Below the pieces are notes generated by a model, which ran no database searches, was not told the DNA's origin, and saw only the letters and a program-made list of their open reading frames with translations. From assembly GCF_020034655.1 (NCBI RefSeq), contig NZ_JAIQDJ010000001.1:744001-808000 (forward strand): DNA of 64,000 bases. The letters are read 5' to 3'. Source of the stretch: Thermomonas beijingensis. Lineage in GTDB: Bacteria > Pseudomonadota > Gammaproteobacteria > Xanthomonadales > Xanthomonadaceae. Made by a program: the position numbers and the translations under genes. Shown here in pieces: positions 43,028-48,080 of the stretch. Every line of letters begins with the position of its first letter. Position 1 is the stretch's first letter.

Positions 43028-45391
43028 TCAGCGCGTTGCCGGCAGCAACGTCAACGTGTATTTCACCGGTCCCGGCAGGAACGGTGCGGGGTCGCCCTCC
43101 ACCCATGCGGCGTGGCCGGCACCCCAGAACGGTGACAGCGGGTGGCCGCTTTGGCCGCCGGGCATTTCGATGATGCCGTCTTGTTCGTGGCCCGGTGAGA
43201 CCACCATGCGTTCAGACGCACCAAAGGCGGGGCCGGCTACGCGCGGCATGTTGCCATCGCCGGCCAAGGCTTGTGCGGGCATGCATAGCCAAGGTTTGCC
43301 GAAGATGGGAATGGCTTTGGCCAAGGGGTGGCAGATCGCGGCGGTATTGCGCTGCCCCCAGGTGCGCTGGCCCAGTGGGCCGGATTTTTCCAAGTTACTG
43401 CGCACTTCGCTGGCGGCATCTTCAAACAGCGCGTTCCAACTTGCATAGTGACGTGGCAGCAGATTGATCGGCATCTGCGTCACCAGCGGCCAGACCACGC
43501 CCTCCAGTTGCGGAAGATGGGGTTTTTCGAACGCTTTACCCAGTGCCACACGCGCCGGGGCGATCAGGCCATCGGCAATCCGCGCGGTGACGGCCAACCG
43601 CCAAGCGCGCACGATGTGGTAGCTCACCGAGGCAGGGGCGGCGCGGCCCTCCCAGGTGGATGCGGCCTGCGCCAAGGCATGCAGTGCGGGCGTGTTGGCA
43701 GTCCTGGCGCGTGCTTGCAGCAGGTGTTGCCACGGGGTGAGGAATACAGCGCGATCGTCCAATTGCACGGCCAGTAAATCATACTCCCGGAAGCGTTGCT
43801 TGGCGTGCAAAGCATCGCGAATTTGCGCGCCACGGGCACCCAGGGCGTAGCCGCCATCGCCTACGGTGGCCAGCGTTGCGCCATCCACCACGCGGGCGTT
43901 GGCGGTCCACAAACGCGGGAATTCCGGCGAACGCAGAACAGGAGTGTTGCGGGTGGACATGGCCCATGGCGGGCAGACTTGCGTGCGTGCATCGATCACG
44001 GTGTTGCTGGCGCGGCAGCTGGCGGCCCGTTGCGGAATCGGCCCCAACAACCGCCATGCGATCTGGCCTTGGGTATCGGCGATCACCAGGTTTTGCGTAG
44101 GCAGGGCAATGTCCTGCGCCAGTTGCAGGGCGTTATCCACGCTCTGTGCCAATGCAAACCGGCTCAAGCCAAGATTCACCGCTCCTGGTAATTGCGCCAC
44201 CCAGCGCAGGCTGAGCACGCGGCCATCGGCTTGATGCTGCATGACAGGGCCCCATGCGGATTCTTCTACCTGCAAGGTGGCCGGCTTGGCGTGGGCGATC
44301 TCGATGCGCTCAGTGAATTCACGCAGCGGCGCGCAACCCGATGCGACGGCACGGGTGCAGGGGGTTTCCAGCTTCCAATCCTGTGTGTCGATATAGCTAT
44401 TGGTAAAGCCCCAGGCCACCCGCCCATTGCTGCCGGCCACCACCAGCGGCAGGCCGGGGAGGGTGAAGCCCTGCACATCGACCTTGCCGTCGGGCGCAGC
44501 CGGGTCGCGGTAGCGCAGGCGCGCACGAAACCAGATATTGGGCGCGCGCAGGGTCAGGTGCATGTCGTCGGCGACGATGGCGCGGCCGTCGGCGGTCAGA
44601 CTGGCGGCCACCGCAAAATTATTGCTGCCGGGGGCGTGCCAGACATCCGCGGTGACCGTGTCCACAGGATCGCCGGGAAGGGTGCGCAAATTCACCTGCT
44701 CAGCACCGGGTAGCATCGCATCGCCACGCGCGGTGCCTTGCAGCGGCGCATCCCAACGCGTGCCATCGCGAGTCAGCAGGGCATACAGCGCCGGTGGCAG
44801 ATGCGGGCGTATTCGCCACAGCGCAAGTTCACTTGTGTTGTCACCACCTTGCAGATCGAAATACATGGCCATCGCGGCCAGCGGCGTGTCTTCGGCCATC
44901 CACGGCTGTGGCGCTTCGCGCAGCAACAGGTATGGCCACGGGCGTGCACGCAGCGCGGCAAGACCTGCGTTGACGCCGGCGACATAGGCATCCAGTTGCG
45001 GCCGTTTGTCCGCCACGATCAGTGGCAGATCCTGTTTCACCCGCGCACGCAGGCGATGCAGGCGGTGCTGTTTATCCACGTCAAGCGCCAGTGGTCCCAC
45101 CAGTGCGGCCAGCTCGCCTGCGGCGCTGCGGCGCATCAAATCCATTTCGAAAAAGCGCTCCTGTGCATGCACATAGCCGAGTGCACGCAGGGCGTCGGAT
45201 TCGTTTTGCGCGTCGATGGTGACGGTACCGTTGGCATCGCGTGACACGGTGGCGGTTGCCTGCAAGCCCGGCAAGGCGTGCTGGCCTTCCAGCGTGGGCA
45301 GGCTGCCGCGCAACAGGCAATAGACCGTGATGGACGCAGCCACCACCAGCAGCAACAATGCAAGCAATCCCCGGTTAAGCCATCGACGCAT
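43028..45391 (-). CDS. Penicillin acylase family protein (Ntn-hydrolase)
   Basis: A 787-residue precursor with one N-terminal hydrophobic helix (LLALLLLVVAASITVYCLL) that acts as signal or anchor. The alpha-chain part contains DANGTVTIDAQNESDALRALGYVHAQERFFEMDLMRR. Autocleavage is expected before Ser256 in HAPGSNNFAV, the N-terminal nucleophile of the beta chain. Members include penicillin G acylases and acyl-homoserine-lactone (quorum-sensing signal) acylases. Substrate cannot be told from sequence. The start at 45391 follows the signal-like helix; the frame further upstream lies in the asnB leader region and is not coding. Confidence 0.9.
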   Translation of the reverse strand: MRRWLNRGLLALLLLVVAASITVYCLLRGSLPTLEGQHALPGLQATATVSRDANGTVTIDAQNESDALRALGYVHAQERFFEMDLMRRSAAGELAALVGPLALDVDKQHRLHRLRARVKQDLPLIVADKRPQLDAYVAGVNAGLAALRARPWPYLLLREAPQPWMAEDTPLAAMAMYFDLQGGDNTSELALWRIRPHLPPALYALLTRDGTRWDAPLQGTARGDAMLPGAEQVNLRTLPGDPVDTVTADVWHAPGSNNFAVAASLTADGRAIVADDMHLTLRAPNIWFRARLRYRDPAAPDGKVDVQGFTLPGLPLVVAGSNGRVAWGFTNSYIDTQDWKLETPCTRAVASGCAPLREFTERIEIAHAKPATLQVEESAWGPVMQHQADGRVLSLRWVAQLPGAVNLGLSRFALAQSVDNALQLAQDIALPTQNLVIADTQGQIAWRLLGPIPQRAASCRASNTVIDARTQVCPPWAMSTRNTPVLRSPEFPRLWTANARVVDGATLATVGDGGYALGARGAQIRDALHAKQRFREYDLLAVQLDDRAVFLTPWQHLLQARARTANTPALHALAQAASTWEGRAAPASVSYHIVRAWRLAVTARIADGLIAPARVALGKAFEKPHLPQLEGVVWPLVTQMPINLLPRHYASWNALFEDAASEVRSNLEKSGPLGQRTWGQRNTAAICHPLAKAIPIFGKPWLCMPAQALAGDGNMPRVAGPAFGASERMVVSPGHEQDGIIEMPGGQSGHPLSPFWGAGHAAWVEGDPAPFLPGPVKYTLTLLPATR

Positions 45392-45484
45392 CACGTTCCC
45401 CGTCTTAATCTGGTGATGTATCGAAGAAGTTGCATCCGCAAGCATCGCTTGCGCACAGGCAAGCAAATAGTGCACGATCGCCGC

Positions 45485-45574
45485 ATGTCGTTCGCCCTTG
45501 CCAACATTAACAATAATTGCAACCGCAATAATCGCGGCACGAGACAGCGTGCGCGGCAGCGGGCCCGCGCATAG
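45485..45574 (+). CDS. Asparagine-rich leader peptide of asnB (candidate attenuator)
   Basis: A 29-codon ORF, ATG at 45485 to TAG at 45572-45574, upstream of asnB. Residues 6-16 read ANINNNCNRNN: seven Asn codons (AAC and AAT) within codons 7-16, in an otherwise GC-rich genome. The tail is rich in Arg and Gln. The stop lies 26 bases before a terminator-like hairpin, and asnB starts 111 bases after the stop. This is the layout of leader peptides that make the ribosome stall when the end-product aminoacyl-tRNA is scarce. A GTG five codons upstream (45470) is a possible alternative start. No strong ribosome binding site is visible, and I could not identify the promoter. Confidence 0.75.
   Translation: MSFALANINNNCNRNNRGTRQRARQRARA
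45550..45571 (+). promoter_or_regulatory. Pause-type hairpin in the asnB leader
   Basis: A 7-bp stem (45550-45556 with 45565-45571) with an 8-base loop, overlapping the end of the leader ORF. The loop carries GCGGG (45559-45563), which is complementary to CCCGC (45605-45609) in the 5' arm of the terminator, so an alternative antiterminator pairing is possible. Confidence 0.5.
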
Positions 45575-45600
45575 GCAAGGCAAGACTAGCCGAACTTCCC

Positions 45601-45636
45601 AAGACCCGCATCGCAAGATGCGGGTCTTTTCGTTTT
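45601..45636 (+). terminator. Attenuator (terminator hairpin) in the asnB leader
   Basis: A perfect stem AAGACCCGCATC with GATGCGGGTCTT (12 bp, 45601-45612 with 45617-45628), closed by a GCAA tetraloop and followed by TTCGTTTT. It stands after the Asn-rich leader ORF and before the asnB ribosome binding site. No upstream plus-strand gene needs a terminator here: the neighbouring acylase gene is divergent. Confidence 0.85.
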
Positions 45637-45685
45637 ATCCCTTCGCAATCCACCCACATACTCTCTTCCAGCAAGGACCTCCACC

Positions 45686-47374
45686 ATGTGTTCCATCTTC
45701 GGAATATTTGATCTGCAATCGGCCAGCGAAAGTCAGCAACTACGGCGCGAAGCCCTGGAGCGCTCCGGCCATCAGCGCCACCGTGGCCCGGATTGGAGCG
45801 GGGTGTATGTGGATGCCGGCGCGATCCTTGTGCATGAACGGCTTGCCATCGTCGATCCCGCCGGTGGCTCGCAGCCGCTGCTGTCCGACGACGGCCAACT
45901 GGTGCTGGCGGTCAATGGCGAGATCTACAACCATCGCGCCCTCAAAACCGAGCTCGCCCAGCCCTATGCCTTCCAGACCGAATCCGATTGCGAGGTAATC
46001 AACGCGCTGTATCGCGAAGACGCGCCGGCCTCCTTCCTCAACCGCTTGAACGGCATCTTCGCGTTCGCGTTGTGGGACAAGGCCAAGGGGGGCGCGATCA
46101 TCGCCCGCGATCCGATCGGCGTGGTGCCGCTGTATTGGGGCCATGACAAGGAAGGCCGCTTGCGGGTGGCATCGGAGATGAAGGCGCTGGAAGCCGACTG
46201 CGCGGACGTGGCGCAGTTTCCGCCGGGGCATTGGTTCGATACGGCCACGGGAGAACTGACCCGGTACTACCAACAGCCGTGGCGTGATTACGCGGCGGTG
46301 GAAGGTGCAGAGGTCGGGTTGGCCGAATTGCGCGAAGCGTTCGAAGCCGCCGTGCATCGTCAGCTGATGACCGACGTGCCGTATGGCGTGTTGTTGTCGG
46401 GCGGTTTGGATTCCTCGTTGGTGGCCGCTGTGGCTGCACGCTATGCGCGGCATCGGGTTGAGGATGGTGATCAAACCGAAGCGTGGTGGCCGCGCTTGCA
46501 CAGTTTTGCCATCGGCTTGAAGGGCTCACCGGATCTGGCTGCAGCTAAGGTGGCGGCAGACATGCTGGGTACCGTCCATCACGGGTTCGAATACACCTTC
46601 GAAGAAGGTCTCGACGCGCTGCCGGAGGTGATTCGTCATGTCGAAACCTATGATGTGACGACCATTCGCGCATCGACGCCGATGTTCCTGCTGGCACGCC
46701 GGATCAAGGCGATGGGGGTGAAGATGGTGCTGTCCGGCGAGGGCAGCGACGAGATTTTTGGTGGCTATTTGTATTTCCACAAAGCGCCCAATGCACGTGA
46801 ATTCCACGAGGAGTTGGTGCGCAAACTGGATGCGCTTTACAACTACGACTGCCTGCGTGCCAACAAGTCGATGATGGCCTGGGGCGTGGAGCCACGGGTG
46901 CCGTTTCTGGACCGCGAATTCCTAGACGTGGCGATGCGCATGGATGCCAAGGTCAAGATGGTGGACAAGGCCAGCGGGCGGATTGAAAAGGCGGTGCTGC
47001 GGCAAGCCTTCGAGGGCTATCTGCCGAAGGAAATTTTGTGGCGGCAAAAAGAGCAATTCAGCGATGGTGTGGGCTACGGCTGGATCGATGGTTTGAAGGC
47101 GCATGCCGAGGCGCATGTCACCGACCGCACGCTTGCCGCCGCCGACAAGCGCTTTCCGCACAACCCGCCGCAGACGAAAGAGGCCTATTTCTACCGCACG
47201 ATGTTTGCGCGCTTCTACCCCAGCCCGGCAGCGGCGGAAACCGTGCCCGGTGGCAAGTCGATCGCGTGCTCTTCACCCGCCGCCATTGCGTGGGATGCCA
47301 GCTTTGCCGCGATGGCCGACCCGTCCGGACGCGCGGTGGCAGGGGTACATGAGCAGGCGGTGACAGTGGTGTGA
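45686..47374 (+). CDS. asnB: Asparagine synthase B (glutamine-hydrolysing)
   Basis: A 562-residue enzyme that makes asparagine from aspartate, glutamine and ATP. Cys2 (MCSIFGIF) is the glutaminase nucleophile after Met removal, with RLAIVDP and NGEIYNHRAL in the glutaminase domain. The synthetase domain has the ATP pyrophosphatase loop GVLLSGGLDSSLVA (about 230), SGEGSDEIFGGYLYFHKAP and VEPRVPFLDREFLD. Length is close to E. coli AsnB (554). AAGGA lies nine bases before the ATG. The 300-base upstream region holds an Asn-rich leader peptide and terminator, which suggests regulation by asparagine supply. Confidence 0.97.
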   Translation: MCSIFGIFDLQSASESQQLRREALERSGHQRHRGPDWSGVYVDAGAILVHERLAIVDPAGGSQPLLSDDGQLVLAVNGEIYNHRALKTELAQPYAFQTESDCEVINALYREDAPASFLNRLNGIFAFALWDKAKGGAIIARDPIGVVPLYWGHDKEGRLRVASEMKALEADCADVAQFPPGHWFDTATGELTRYYQQPWRDYAAVEGAEVGLAELREAFEAAVHRQLMTDVPYGVLLSGGLDSSLVAAVAARYARHRVEDGDQTEAWWPRLHSFAIGLKGSPDLAAAKVAADMLGTVHHGFEYTFEEGLDALPEVIRHVETYDVTTIRASTPMFLLARRIKAMGVKMVLSGEGSDEIFGGYLYFHKAPNAREFHEELVRKLDALYNYDCLRANKSMMAWGVEPRVPFLDREFLDVAMRMDAKVKMVDKASGRIEKAVLRQAFEGYLPKEILWRQKEQFSDGVGYGWIDGLKAHAEAHVTDRTLAAADKRFPHNPPQTKEAYFYRTMFARFYPSPAAAETVPGGKSIACSSPAAIAWDASFAAMADPSGRAVAGVHEQAVTVV

Positions 47375-47406: not shown

Positions 47407-47436
47407 TTGACAATGAGAGGTCGTTAGTAGTATTAC
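47407..47436 (+). promoter_or_regulatory. Promoter of lexA
   Basis: A consensus -35 TTGACA (47407-47412), 18-base spacer and -10 TATTAC (47431-47436). The -10 lies inside the LexA palindrome. The predicted start is one to three bases before the lexA ATG, so the mRNA is nearly leaderless. Confidence 0.7.
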
Positions 47437-47442
47437 TACTAA
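47424..47442 (+). promoter_or_regulatory. LexA operator (SOS box of Xanthomonadales type)
   Basis: TTAGTAGTATTACTACTAA, a perfect palindrome around one central base, two bases before the lexA ATG. This matches the TTAGTAG...CTACTAA site known for LexA autoregulation in Xanthomonas, and differs from the enterobacterial CTG-N10-CAG box. Confidence 0.88.
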
Positions 47443-47444
47443 CC

Positions 47445-48080
47445 ATGATGCTTACCGACACCCAGCTCGCCATCCACGCCTTCCTTGCCGAGCGCATCGA
47501 AGCTGATGGGTTTGCGCCGTCGCAGACGGAAATCGCGCGTGCCTTTGGCTTCAAAGGCGTACGTGCGGCCCAATACCACTTGGAGGCACTGGAAGCGGCG
47601 GGGGTGCTGGAACGCAGCCCCGGCCGTGCGCGCAGCCTGCGCCTGCTGCAATGGCCAGACGGCCCCAAGCAGCTGCCCTTGCCTGCCAATGATGACGCCC
47701 TGCAATTGCCGGTACTGGGGCAAGTGGCCGCCGGTGTACCCATCGGAGCAGACATTGGCAGCGAGCAGATGGTGCTGATGGATCGCGCCTTGTTCACGCC
47801 CACACCGGATTACTTGTTGAAGGTGAAGGGCGATTCGATGCGCGATGAGGGCATCTTCGATGGCGATTTGATTGGTGTGCATCGCACCAACGAAGCCCGC
47901 AACGGGCAGATTGTGATTGCGCGCATTGATGACGAAATCACGGTGAAGTTGCTGCGCATCGGGCAAGGCCGCATTCGCCTGTTGCCGCGCAACCCCGACT
48001 ACGCCCCCATCGAAGTCAAACCCGGCCAGGACTTCGCGATTGAAGGCTTGTACTGCGGTCTGGTGCGCCCCAATGCGTAA
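47445..48080 (+). CDS. lexA: SOS repressor LexA
   Basis: A 211-residue repressor/protease. The N-terminal winged helix (residues 1 to about 66; SQTEIARAFGFKGVRAAQYHLEALEAAGVLER) diverges from E. coli in the recognition helix, in keeping with a different operator. The cleavage site is Ala96-Gly97 in QVAAGVPIG. The catalytic Ser131 (KGDSMRDEG) and Lys168 (ITVKLLRIG) are intact. RecA, which triggers its self-cleavage, is encoded directly downstream. A second ATG at 47448 could also be the start. Confidence 0.96.
   Translation: MMLTDTQLAIHAFLAERIEADGFAPSQTEIARAFGFKGVRAAQYHLEALEAAGVLERSPGRARSLRLLQWPDGPKQLPLPANDDALQLPVLGQVAAGVPIGADIGSEQMVLMDRALFTPTPDYLLKVKGDSMRDEGIFDGDLIGVHRTNEARNGQIVIARIDDEITVKLLRIGQGRIRLLPRNPDYAPIEVKPGQDFAIEGLYCGLVRPNA

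Follow-up and report, generated by a model that had tools for sequence, protein, structure and literature searches.

The window analyzed here, a 64,000-nucleotide stretch of DNA from Thermomonas beijingensis, carries asnB on its plus strand (45686 to 47374). NCBIfam models PRK09431.1 and TIGR01536.1 identify the product of this gene, the proposed target of regulation, as a glutamine-hydrolyzing asparagine synthetase. The score against PRK09431.1 was 872.7 bits (cut-off, 499), confirming the initial annotation, which had named asnB as the gene downstream of a terminator. A Shine-Dalgarno-like AAGGA precedes the gene on the same strand (45673 to 45677). The genome contains asnS and one full asnB, and searches of it for gatB and asnA gave no match. 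Since asnS is present without asnA or gatB, asnB looks like the sole source of asparagine in this genome.

A leader ORF of 29 codons lies upstream of asnB on the plus strand (45485 to 45574; translation MSFALANINNNCNRNNRGTRQRARQRARA, then stop), and corresponding ORFs are present in relatives. Codons 7, 9, 10, 11, 13, 15, and 16 (45503 to 45532, plus strand) specify Asn and are the putative control codons; the short ORF thus concentrates codons for the amino acid that the downstream enzyme synthesizes. Rereading of the sequence showed that the ORF and its seven Asn codons within codons 7 to 16 had been described correctly. The frame stays open further 5', with a GTG at 45278 and an ATG at 45416, and so the start at 45485 is assigned from its conservation in relatives.

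Two hairpins follow on the plus strand, both found where the initial annotation had placed them. The first (TGCGCGG/CCGCGCA, 7 bp, 45550 to 45571) is a candidate protector or pause structure of the untranslated state and holds in its loop region 2, the sequence GCGGG (45559 to 45563), which is the predicted 5' arm of an antiterminator within the ORF. The second belongs to a predicted intrinsic terminator (45601 to 45638), which is conserved in 97 sequences and comprises a 12-bp, GCAA-capped hairpin (AAGACCCGCATC-GCAA-GATGCGGGTCTT, 45601 to 45628, beginning 26 nt past the leader stop codon) and a T-rich tail (TTCGTTTTAT). Its left arm, region 3 (45601 to 45612), is common to the antiterminator, in which its CCCGC (45605 to 45609) would pair with region 2. 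An intrinsic terminator between the leader ORF and the structural gene was found in the window and in relatives. The upstream neighbor gene, which runs from 43028 to an ATG at 45391, lies on the minus strand, and the terminator therefore does not close a plus-strand gene located 5' of it. The region 2:3 helix is only 5 bp long in the window, as in 8 of 105 loci, and reaches up to 11 bp elsewhere; it measures at least 7 bp at 84 of the 105 loci versus 16.5% of 5250 shuffled segments.

With a threshold of at least three Asn plus a hairpin, the same order of parts was observed upstream of asnB at 105 of 114 loci, one of which is that of the window, with 18 to 36 nt between stop codon and hairpin. 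The genera with this layout include Xanthomonas, Stenotrophomonas, Lysobacter, Rhodanobacter, and Dyella, and two further loci outside the count (L053 and L057) carry it as well. Dinucleotide shuffles of the relatives' upstream regions and other stretches of the same loci served as chance controls. A single one of the 525 shuffles and three of the 510 other stretches reached the threshold, as did one of 38 distant asnB loci (L124 to L161). A leader with at least five Asn was present at 87 of the 105 loci and in none of the 525 shuffles, 510 other stretches, or 38 distant loci. Conservation at this level, set against the shuffle controls, rules out a chance ORF. When the window was tiled, 1 of 604 tiles combined at least five Asn in 12 codons with a hairpin of 8 bp or more, and this was the leader locus itself. 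Asn accounts for 658 of 3377 leader codons versus 765 of 48260 asnB codons at the 105 loci, the leader ORFs having been picked for Asn. The poorest leaders (L036, L039, L076, and L112) have three Asn in 12 codons.

Nine of the 114 loci were misses: L023 has masked bases, L040 has its leader further upstream, L056 has an Asn-rich ORF for which no hairpin was found, and L097, L098, and L122 come from records labeled as other taxa; the others were L050, L060, and L061. The putative attenuator was found in three families of Xanthomonadales and was absent from the other families sampled. Of 229 genomes in a class-wide search, 8 had an asnB match (E values up to 1e-60), and 3 of these were previously known. 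Two of the five new loci could be located (L182 and L183, each from an ATG resembling a start codon close to the anticipated position), and no leader was found at either.

Both alternative helices were then assessed in alignment A1, from which eight atypical rows had been removed beforehand. In the antiterminator, 81.1% of cells were paired across 97 sequences, versus 73.9% in column shuffles, none of 500 of which was as high, and 22.6 to 41.1% in slid-helix controls. The terminator was paired in 95.3% of cells in the 97 sequences, versus 23.8 to 55.3% for slid helices. Two-sided changes, whose counts are inflated by the relatedness of the sequences, occur at 8 of 11 antiterminator pairs (97 sequences) and at 7 of 12 terminator pairs, the latter figure being reached by 147 of 500 shuffles. 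Further pair types did not exceed shuffles in either helix (87 of 500 for the antiterminator; 83 of 500 for the terminator), and the pair adjoining the antiterminator core is unpaired in 33 of 97 rows. In five sequences, a C-to-U change in region 3 is matched by a G-to-A change in region 2, and region 4 keeps its G, leaving a GU pair in the terminator. These co-changes point to selection on the antiterminator itself. The GCGGG and CCCGC sites proposed for mutually exclusive folds were confirmed in the window, and an antiterminator formed from the leader ORF and a terminator arm is kept by compensatory change. The comparative test set by the initial annotation, a conserved Asn-rich ORF and terminator before asnB with compensatory changes, was therefore passed.

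Taken with the folding models described below, these comparisons make it very probable that the asnB leader is a ribosome-mediated transcription attenuator tuned to the supply of charged Asn-tRNA. The general scheme of such leader-peptide attenuation of amino acid operons is outlined in the available portions of two articles (PMC1183508, PMC9413887). Transcription would begin at or beside the AUG of the short leader ORF, and a ribosome would translate the ORF close behind RNA polymerase. With Asn-tRNA charged, the ribosome would clear the Asn run and cover region 2, in the last ~10 codons, while region 3 emerges; region 3 would then pair with region 4 to form the terminator, and asnB would be off. 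When asparagine is scarce, a ribosome stalled on the Asn codons would leave region 2 exposed to pair with region 3 ahead of region 4 synthesis, preempting the terminator so that asnB is transcribed. The parts, their conservation, the two-sided changes in both helices, and the ribosome-masking geometry were all obtained by computation. We infer ribosome stalling, coupling, readthrough, and a response to asparagine in cells.

It is improbable that the leader instead controls asnB without amino acid-specific stalling, through the Asn-rich peptide or the terminated leader RNA (~150 nt) acting alone or in trans. Such action has a precedent in Sinorhizobium meliloti, where the trpL leader peptide (peTrpL) and RNA (rnTrpL) act in trans according to the available text of PMC7298713, and the terminated asnB leader would be a compact RNA. 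The conserved features nevertheless fit attenuation in cis: the amino acid specified by the control codons is the one that the asnB enzyme makes, and two-sided changes are found in both alternative helices. The peptides of relatives, moreover, diverge widely except in the Asn stretch and in the terminal part whose codons hold region 2.

In order to model the effect of ribosome position on attenuation, eight leaders, including that of the window, were folded with a masked ribosome, with results at every second codon. The antiterminator was free mainly when the modeled ribosome stood on or before the Asn codons. In the window, pairing of regions 2 and 3 ahead of region 4 was 0.70 to 0.86 at codons 7 to 11, 0.24 at codon 13, and 0.07 at codon 15; in the other seven leaders, it was at least 0.49 at most sampled Asn positions. 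This pairing was lost within the Asn run in the window and at or just after its end in the other seven, and it fell to 0.00 soon after the run. Comparison of folds with and without a ribosome, as had been suggested, places the switch within the Asn run or where that run ends. With the ribosome absent, the pairing was 0.04 in the window, 0.00 in L079, and 0.78 to 1.00 in the other six leaders, and in Stenotrophomonas maltophilia region 2 remains free (1.00) with the modeled ribosome placed on the stop codon. Equilibrium folding of the full-length RNA prefers the terminator in most states, and antitermination would therefore have to be kinetic. In sum, conservation, two-sided changes, and the masking folds give computational support to the candidate Asn-sensing attenuator of the initial annotation.

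The same folds bear on a still less probable reading, in which the attenuator senses general translation, or arginine through the many Arg codons of the leader. These codons are indeed common toward the 3' end of the ORF. Many of them, however, overlap or adjoin region 2, where a modeled ribosome gives no antitermination, and so scarcity of Arg would turn asnB off rather than on. The product of the next gene's enzyme, in addition, is asparagine.

Upstream of the leader ORF, a -35-like TTGCGC (45449 to 45454, plus strand) was read from the sequence, its TTGC being conserved in relatives, and conservation places a -10-like CACGAT (45473 to 45478, plus strand) after an 18-nt spacer, with transcription predicted to start at or beside the leader ATG. 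Unbiased counts of position upstream of this ATG were used because a consensus search admitted only 5 to 9 nt before it. TTGC stands at -36, -35, or -37 in 87 of 103 distinct upstreams (background, ~0.6 per position), and [TC]ANNNT stands at -12 or -13 in 79 of 103. A generic scan of 45000 to 46000 found no sigma-70 site, and, when the window was scored by itself, the consensus gave slight preference to a different site, 5' of the upstream ATG at 45416; our promoter assignment in the window is made from conservation. The conserved promoter ends 6 to 7 nt 5' of the leader ATG, and the mRNA from which the leader peptide is made is therefore probably leaderless. In relatives, the spacing of the promoter and the scores for a Shine-Dalgarno site agree with such a start (in the Shine-Dalgarno control at random positions, a score of 0 was obtained at 20 of 103 places, which probably lay beyond the end of short stretches). 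Least credible of all is an ordinary intergenic terminator with a chance ORF and an asnB promoter downstream of the terminator, which would suit the empty sigma-70 scan and the genes that, by eye, seem to end close upstream in some relatives but is opposed by the recurrence of Asn-rich ORF and hairpin (105 of 114 loci; 1 of 525 shuffles), by the conserved promoter seen when relatives' pre-ORF stretches were compared, and by the opposite-strand neighbor in the window.

The leader was compared with Rfam families Thr_leader (RF00506), Leu_leader (RF00512), and Trp_leader (RF00513). On the plus strand of the window, Thr_leader scored 17.5 bits (gathering threshold, 55) and Leu_leader 17.4 (gathering threshold, 50), and the best score of five relatives against Rfam leaders was 23.9 against a threshold of 41. 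Membership in these three families was rejected, as no match reached the gathering level in the window or the five relatives, and no other Rfam family passed its cut-off at the leader. A T-box riboswitch was likewise rejected, there being none among the window's two gathering-level matches or the five matches with E values of ≤10 in 45400 to 45700. No asparagine attenuator was found among the matches listed in a literature search, and an earlier mention may exist; none is described in the available portions of PMC2965389, PMC1262725, PMC1183508, PMC3771888, PMC7298713, and PMC9413887. The Xanthomonas asparagine synthase gene XCV1533 is unchanged in an sRNA mutant, according to the accessible part of PMC3771888, which has no bearing here.

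Model R1 also matched other leaders. Its second-best match in the T. beijingensis genome (G000:C4:69967-70091, L187; E value, 7.2e-12) is an ilvC-like leader, ilvC being named by eye from sequence, and is only about two orders better than L188 (1.1e-9), a hairpin without a leader. Among the secondary matches, which had been considered as candidate second targets, L187 and L189 to L193 are leaders of what reads as ilvC, L199 is a leader-like ORF (..LLILI..) ahead of what reads as ilvD, L200 and L202 to L205 are asnB leaders, and L188, L194, L198, L201, and L206 are hairpins without a leader; this reading leaves out L196, most of L197, and part of L195.

The type of attenuator is already known, and asparagine would be the new amino acid sensed. 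We suggest, tentatively, that this is the first Asn-responsive ribosome-mediated attenuator, present in three Xanthomonadales families, and one of a leaderless set (asnB and ilvC) that shares a build and differs mainly in control codons, perhaps by an evolutionary swap of the sensed amino acid. An attenuator of asnB would bring asparagine in among the amino acids with leader-peptide control of their synthesis, and a group rich in plant-associated and opportunistic species would gain a rule of asparagine supply that can be put to the test. In T. beijingensis, where asnB seems to be the one route to asparagine, the switch would govern a single point of failure. The predicted leaderless start raises the question of how ribosomes load without a Shine-Dalgarno sequence fast enough to stay coupled to polymerase.

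The his, trp, leu, thr, ilv, and phe operons are controlled by leader-peptide attenuation. The asnB leader resembles them in its product-rich ORF, its 2:3 antiterminator opposed to a 3:4 terminator, its U-rich tail, and the structural gene that comes next; unlike them, it has Asn as the control codon, asnB as the gene, and a leader ORF predicted to be leaderless. Asparagine supply is also the signal for the Asn T-boxes of Firmicutes, which bind uncharged tRNA directly, and for AsnC, the protein that controls Escherichia coli asnA. In those systems the sensor is a tRNA-binding RNA or a protein, whereas here sensing would be ribosome mediated. In S. meliloti trpL, the RNA begins at the ATG of the leader ORF, which makes its leader peptide leaderless, as predicted for the asnB leader; trpL differs in responding to Trp and in belonging to the Alphaproteobacteria, and it is described as acting in trans as well (trpL as described in the available text of PMC7298713). 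The leaders of apparent ilvC genes in the same genomes likewise have an ORF that stops ~25 to 30 nt short of a similarly built terminator, and TTGACA lies 36 nt upstream of a leader ATG, but the control codons specify Leu, Val, and Ile (..LVLVLI..) in place of Asn.

The short ORF at 45485-45574 (+ strand), with the product MSFALANINNNCNRNNRGTRQRARQRARA*, lies upstream of asnB (45686-47374, + strand), and a 12-bp hairpin without mismatches, followed by a T-rich tail, begins 26 nt past its stop codon. This Asn-rich ORF and hairpin had been reported in the initial annotation, and both were confirmed at these positions. The leader frame stays open farther upstream (GTG at 45278 and ATG at 45416); the choice of 45485 as the start is therefore based on conservation. 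The segment 45470-45690 has a more stable fold than shuffled versions of it (z, -3.1), of which 1 in 200 reached the same stability. The hairpin is not the terminator of an upstream + strand gene, since the neighboring gene (43028 to its ATG at 45391), which gave only a weak partial match to the acylase PvdQ, lies on the - strand. This gene sits between dapE and asnB in the window; in several relatives, the stretch directly before the promoter, read by eye, resembles the 3' terminus of a + strand gene, which may be dapE. A palindrome, TTAGTAGTATTACTACTAA (47424-47442), lies directly before lexA (47445-48080) and resembles the LexA box of xanthomonads.

An asnB match (E up to 1e-60) was found in 269 of 296 genomes of the family. 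The proposed comparison of asnB upstream regions was made on 114 loci (the window's own, L001, and L003 to L123, minus L053, L057, L059, and five duplicates), scored for a short ORF carrying three or more Asn codons within a stretch of 12, followed soon after by a hairpin of at least 8 bp. The Asn-rich ORF and terminator are kept in 105 of the 114, with two-sided base changes. The stop codon and hairpin are 18 to 36 nt apart in all 105, the search having permitted up to about 75 nt, and 25 to 222 nt separate the hairpin from asnB. Named carriers include Xanthomonas, Stenotrophomonas, Pseudoxanthomonas, Luteimonas, Lysobacter, Arenimonas, Thermomonas, Rhodanobacter, Dyella, Frateuria, and Fulvimonas. 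The nine loci scored as negative were L023, which has masked bases; L040, where the leader sits further upstream and has four Asn codons; L056, where the Asn-rich ORF is present and the hairpin search gave none; L097, L098, and L122, which are in records labeled as other taxa; and L050, L060, and L061. Outside the 114, L053 and L057 carry the leader, and none was found at L059.

The pairing of an Asn-rich ORF with a hairpin is not due to chance. At least five Asn codons plus a hairpin occurred in 87 of the 105 real loci. None of 525 dinucleotide shuffles had this combination, nor did any of 510 stretches taken elsewhere in these loci or any of 38 distant asnB loci (from Shewanella, Vibrio, Colwellia, and others); among 604 window tiles, the one positive was the asnB leader locus itself. 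With the looser threshold of three Asn codons, the counts were 105 real loci, 1 of 525 shuffles, 3 of 510 other stretches, and 1 of 38 distant loci. Asn takes up 658 of 3,377 leader codons versus 765 of 48,260 codons of asnB genes, a contrast that is inflated because the leader ORFs were chosen for Asn, the shuffles being the fair control; the two shifted frames of the leader ORFs hold 1 and 8 Asn codons. AAC and AAT are nearly equal in the leaders (350 and 308), whereas asnB favors AAC (649 to 116). This balance points to selection for the amino acid, not for a single codon.

Two mutually exclusive folds had been claimed for the leader RNA. Region 2 falls within roughly the last ten leader codons; by pairing with region 3 (the terminator's left arm), it can form an antiterminator (2:3) that would exclude the pairing of region 3 with the right arm, region 4. 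The 2:3 pairing was borne out, with a best helix of 7 bp or more at 84 of the 105 loci versus 16.5% of 5,250 shuffled segments; at a few loci, this helix lies away from the usual place. An alignment of 97 distinct sequences (the 105 minus the atypical L032, L036, L044, L046, L055, L100, L101, and L112) has 81.1% of antiterminator cells paired, compared with 73.9% in column shuffles (0 of 500 as high) and 22.6 to 41.1% in slid helices; for the terminator, the value is 95.3% (slid helices, 23.8 to 55.3%). Two-sided changes occur in 8 of 11 antiterminator pairs and 7 of 12 terminator pairs. Further pair types were no better than in shuffles (87 of 500 for the antiterminator and 83 of 500 for the terminator), and terminator pairs changed on both sides were matched in 147 of 500 shuffles. 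The most telling covariation, in our view, is seen in five sequences: C becomes U in region 3 and its partner G in region 2 becomes A, while the G of region 4 is retained and forms a GU pair. These five may reflect one event, and related rows inflate such counts. The pair adjoining the antiterminator core is U-A in 41 rows, G-C in 12, and C-G in 9 and is unpaired in 33 of 97. The consensus fold of the alignment displays the terminator.

Eight leaders were folded with a 29-nt ribosome footprint masked, and every second codon was printed. In the window leader, before region 4 exists, 2:3 pairing stood at 0.84 to 0.96 with the ribosome before codon 7 and at 0.70 to 0.86 with it on codons 7 to 11, dropping to 0.24 at codon 13 and 0.07 at codon 15, both within the Asn run, and to 0.00 from codon 17. 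A Xanthomonas leader gave 0.86 to 0.95 at the printed positions through codon 19, with a drop to 0.29 at codon 21 and to 0.00 from codon 23 onward. Pairing on the Asn run was weaker in L079 (0.49 to 0.71), and in the remaining leaders it was lost at the end of the run or just beyond. Folding with and without a ribosome, which the initial annotation had called for, favors 2:3 in the model with the ribosome on or before the Asn run, with loss within or just after it. Without a ribosome, 2:3 does not form in the window (0.04) or L079 (0.00) and reaches 0.78 to 1.00 in the six others, so the untranslated state may vary between lineages. Since full-length equilibrium folding mostly favors the terminator, we infer that the switch would have to be kinetic. 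In S. maltophilia, region 2 stays accessible (1.00) when the masked ribosome sits at the stop codon, a state that would be expected to increase basal readthrough.

A conserved promoter lies upstream of the leader ATG: TTGC occurs at -36, -35, or -37 in 87 of 103 distinct upstream sequences and [TC]ANNNT at -12 or -13 in 79 of them, each against a background of <1 per position; promoter alignments also were made for 60 loci in four groups. In the window these elements are TTGCGC (45449-45454, + strand) and the -10-like CACGAT (45473-45478, + strand), poor matches to the consensus whose positions are kept in relatives. A generic promoter scan of the window did not pick them up, and a scored search on the window alone favored another place. 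A gap of 6 to 7 nt separates the -10 element from the leader ATG, which places the expected transcription start at or next to this codon and predicts a leaderless leader mRNA. Shine-Dalgarno scores are mostly 3 to 4 of 6 at the leader ATG, like random places, and mostly 4 to 5 at asnB. Leaderless leader peptides are already known, S. meliloti trpL being an example (PMC7298713), so this would not be a new principle. An inverted repeat (GTTGC-N4-GCAAC or a near variant) is present just 5' of the promoter, at -51 to -53 from the leader ATG, in 26 of 105 loci (L007 to L011, L013 to L018, L081, L092, and others); the pattern occurred at any position in 7 of 2,100 mononucleotide shuffles. It is a possible operator, which would imply dual control of asnB; no copy was found within 90 nt upstream of the window's leader.

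A covariance model of the leader was run against 250 genomes of the order. Strong matches (best E of 3.0e-10 or lower, a cut picked after inspection of the list) were limited to families f1 (48 of 54 genomes), f2 (3 of 3), and f12 (42 of 50), with none in the other families among these 250 genomes; one of the denominators may be off by one, as the list lacks one genome that had no match. The cut misses some leaders, since a weaker f12 match (G486, 4.5e-9) also is an asnB leader (L200). Of the six f1 genomes that lack a strong match, four (G107, G076, G128, and G002) have no asnB match and two (G040 and G022) have an AsnB of only 64 to 65% identity, which suggests that the leader follows a single AsnB lineage. 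At family loci L059, L060, and L061, AsnB is only about 65% identical and no leader was found, a pattern that would fit a second AsnB lineage. G107, from the window's genus and rated 100% complete, gave no asnB match at E 1e-60, though asnS is present; its best leader match was not strong (E, 1.1e-6).

The window's own genome (2.79 Mb, 60 contigs) carries asnS. It was searched for gatB and asnA, with no match to either, and its only other asnB-like match is a single 31% partial one. With this gene content, free asparagine made by AsnB should be needed to charge tRNA-Asn, and this charging is the signal that the leader would read.

The attenuator reading of the asnB leader is supported by sequence comparison and modeling, and the predicted mechanism in cells stands as a proposal from sequence and folding. 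Rfam leader families score far under threshold on the asnB leaders, and a literature search, in which attenuator surveys and Xanthomonas transcriptomes were incompletely covered, found no asparagine attenuator. In the window's own genome and in several relatives, the next-best matches of the covariance model are leaders of an apparent ilvC (gene as read; L187, L190, L191, and L193 among the loci inspected). L187 (G000:C4:69300-70800; match at 69967-70091, - strand) is a Leu/Val/Ile-run leader attenuator in the window's own genome; similar leaders are present in L189 to L193, and a leader-like ORF precedes an apparent ilvD in L199. The apparent ilvC leaders share similar spacing with the asnB leader, with TTGACA 36 nt before the leader ATG, but differ in carrying branched-chain runs such as LVLVLI. 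In this internal comparison, the asnB leader resembles switches of a known type, with a new control codon.
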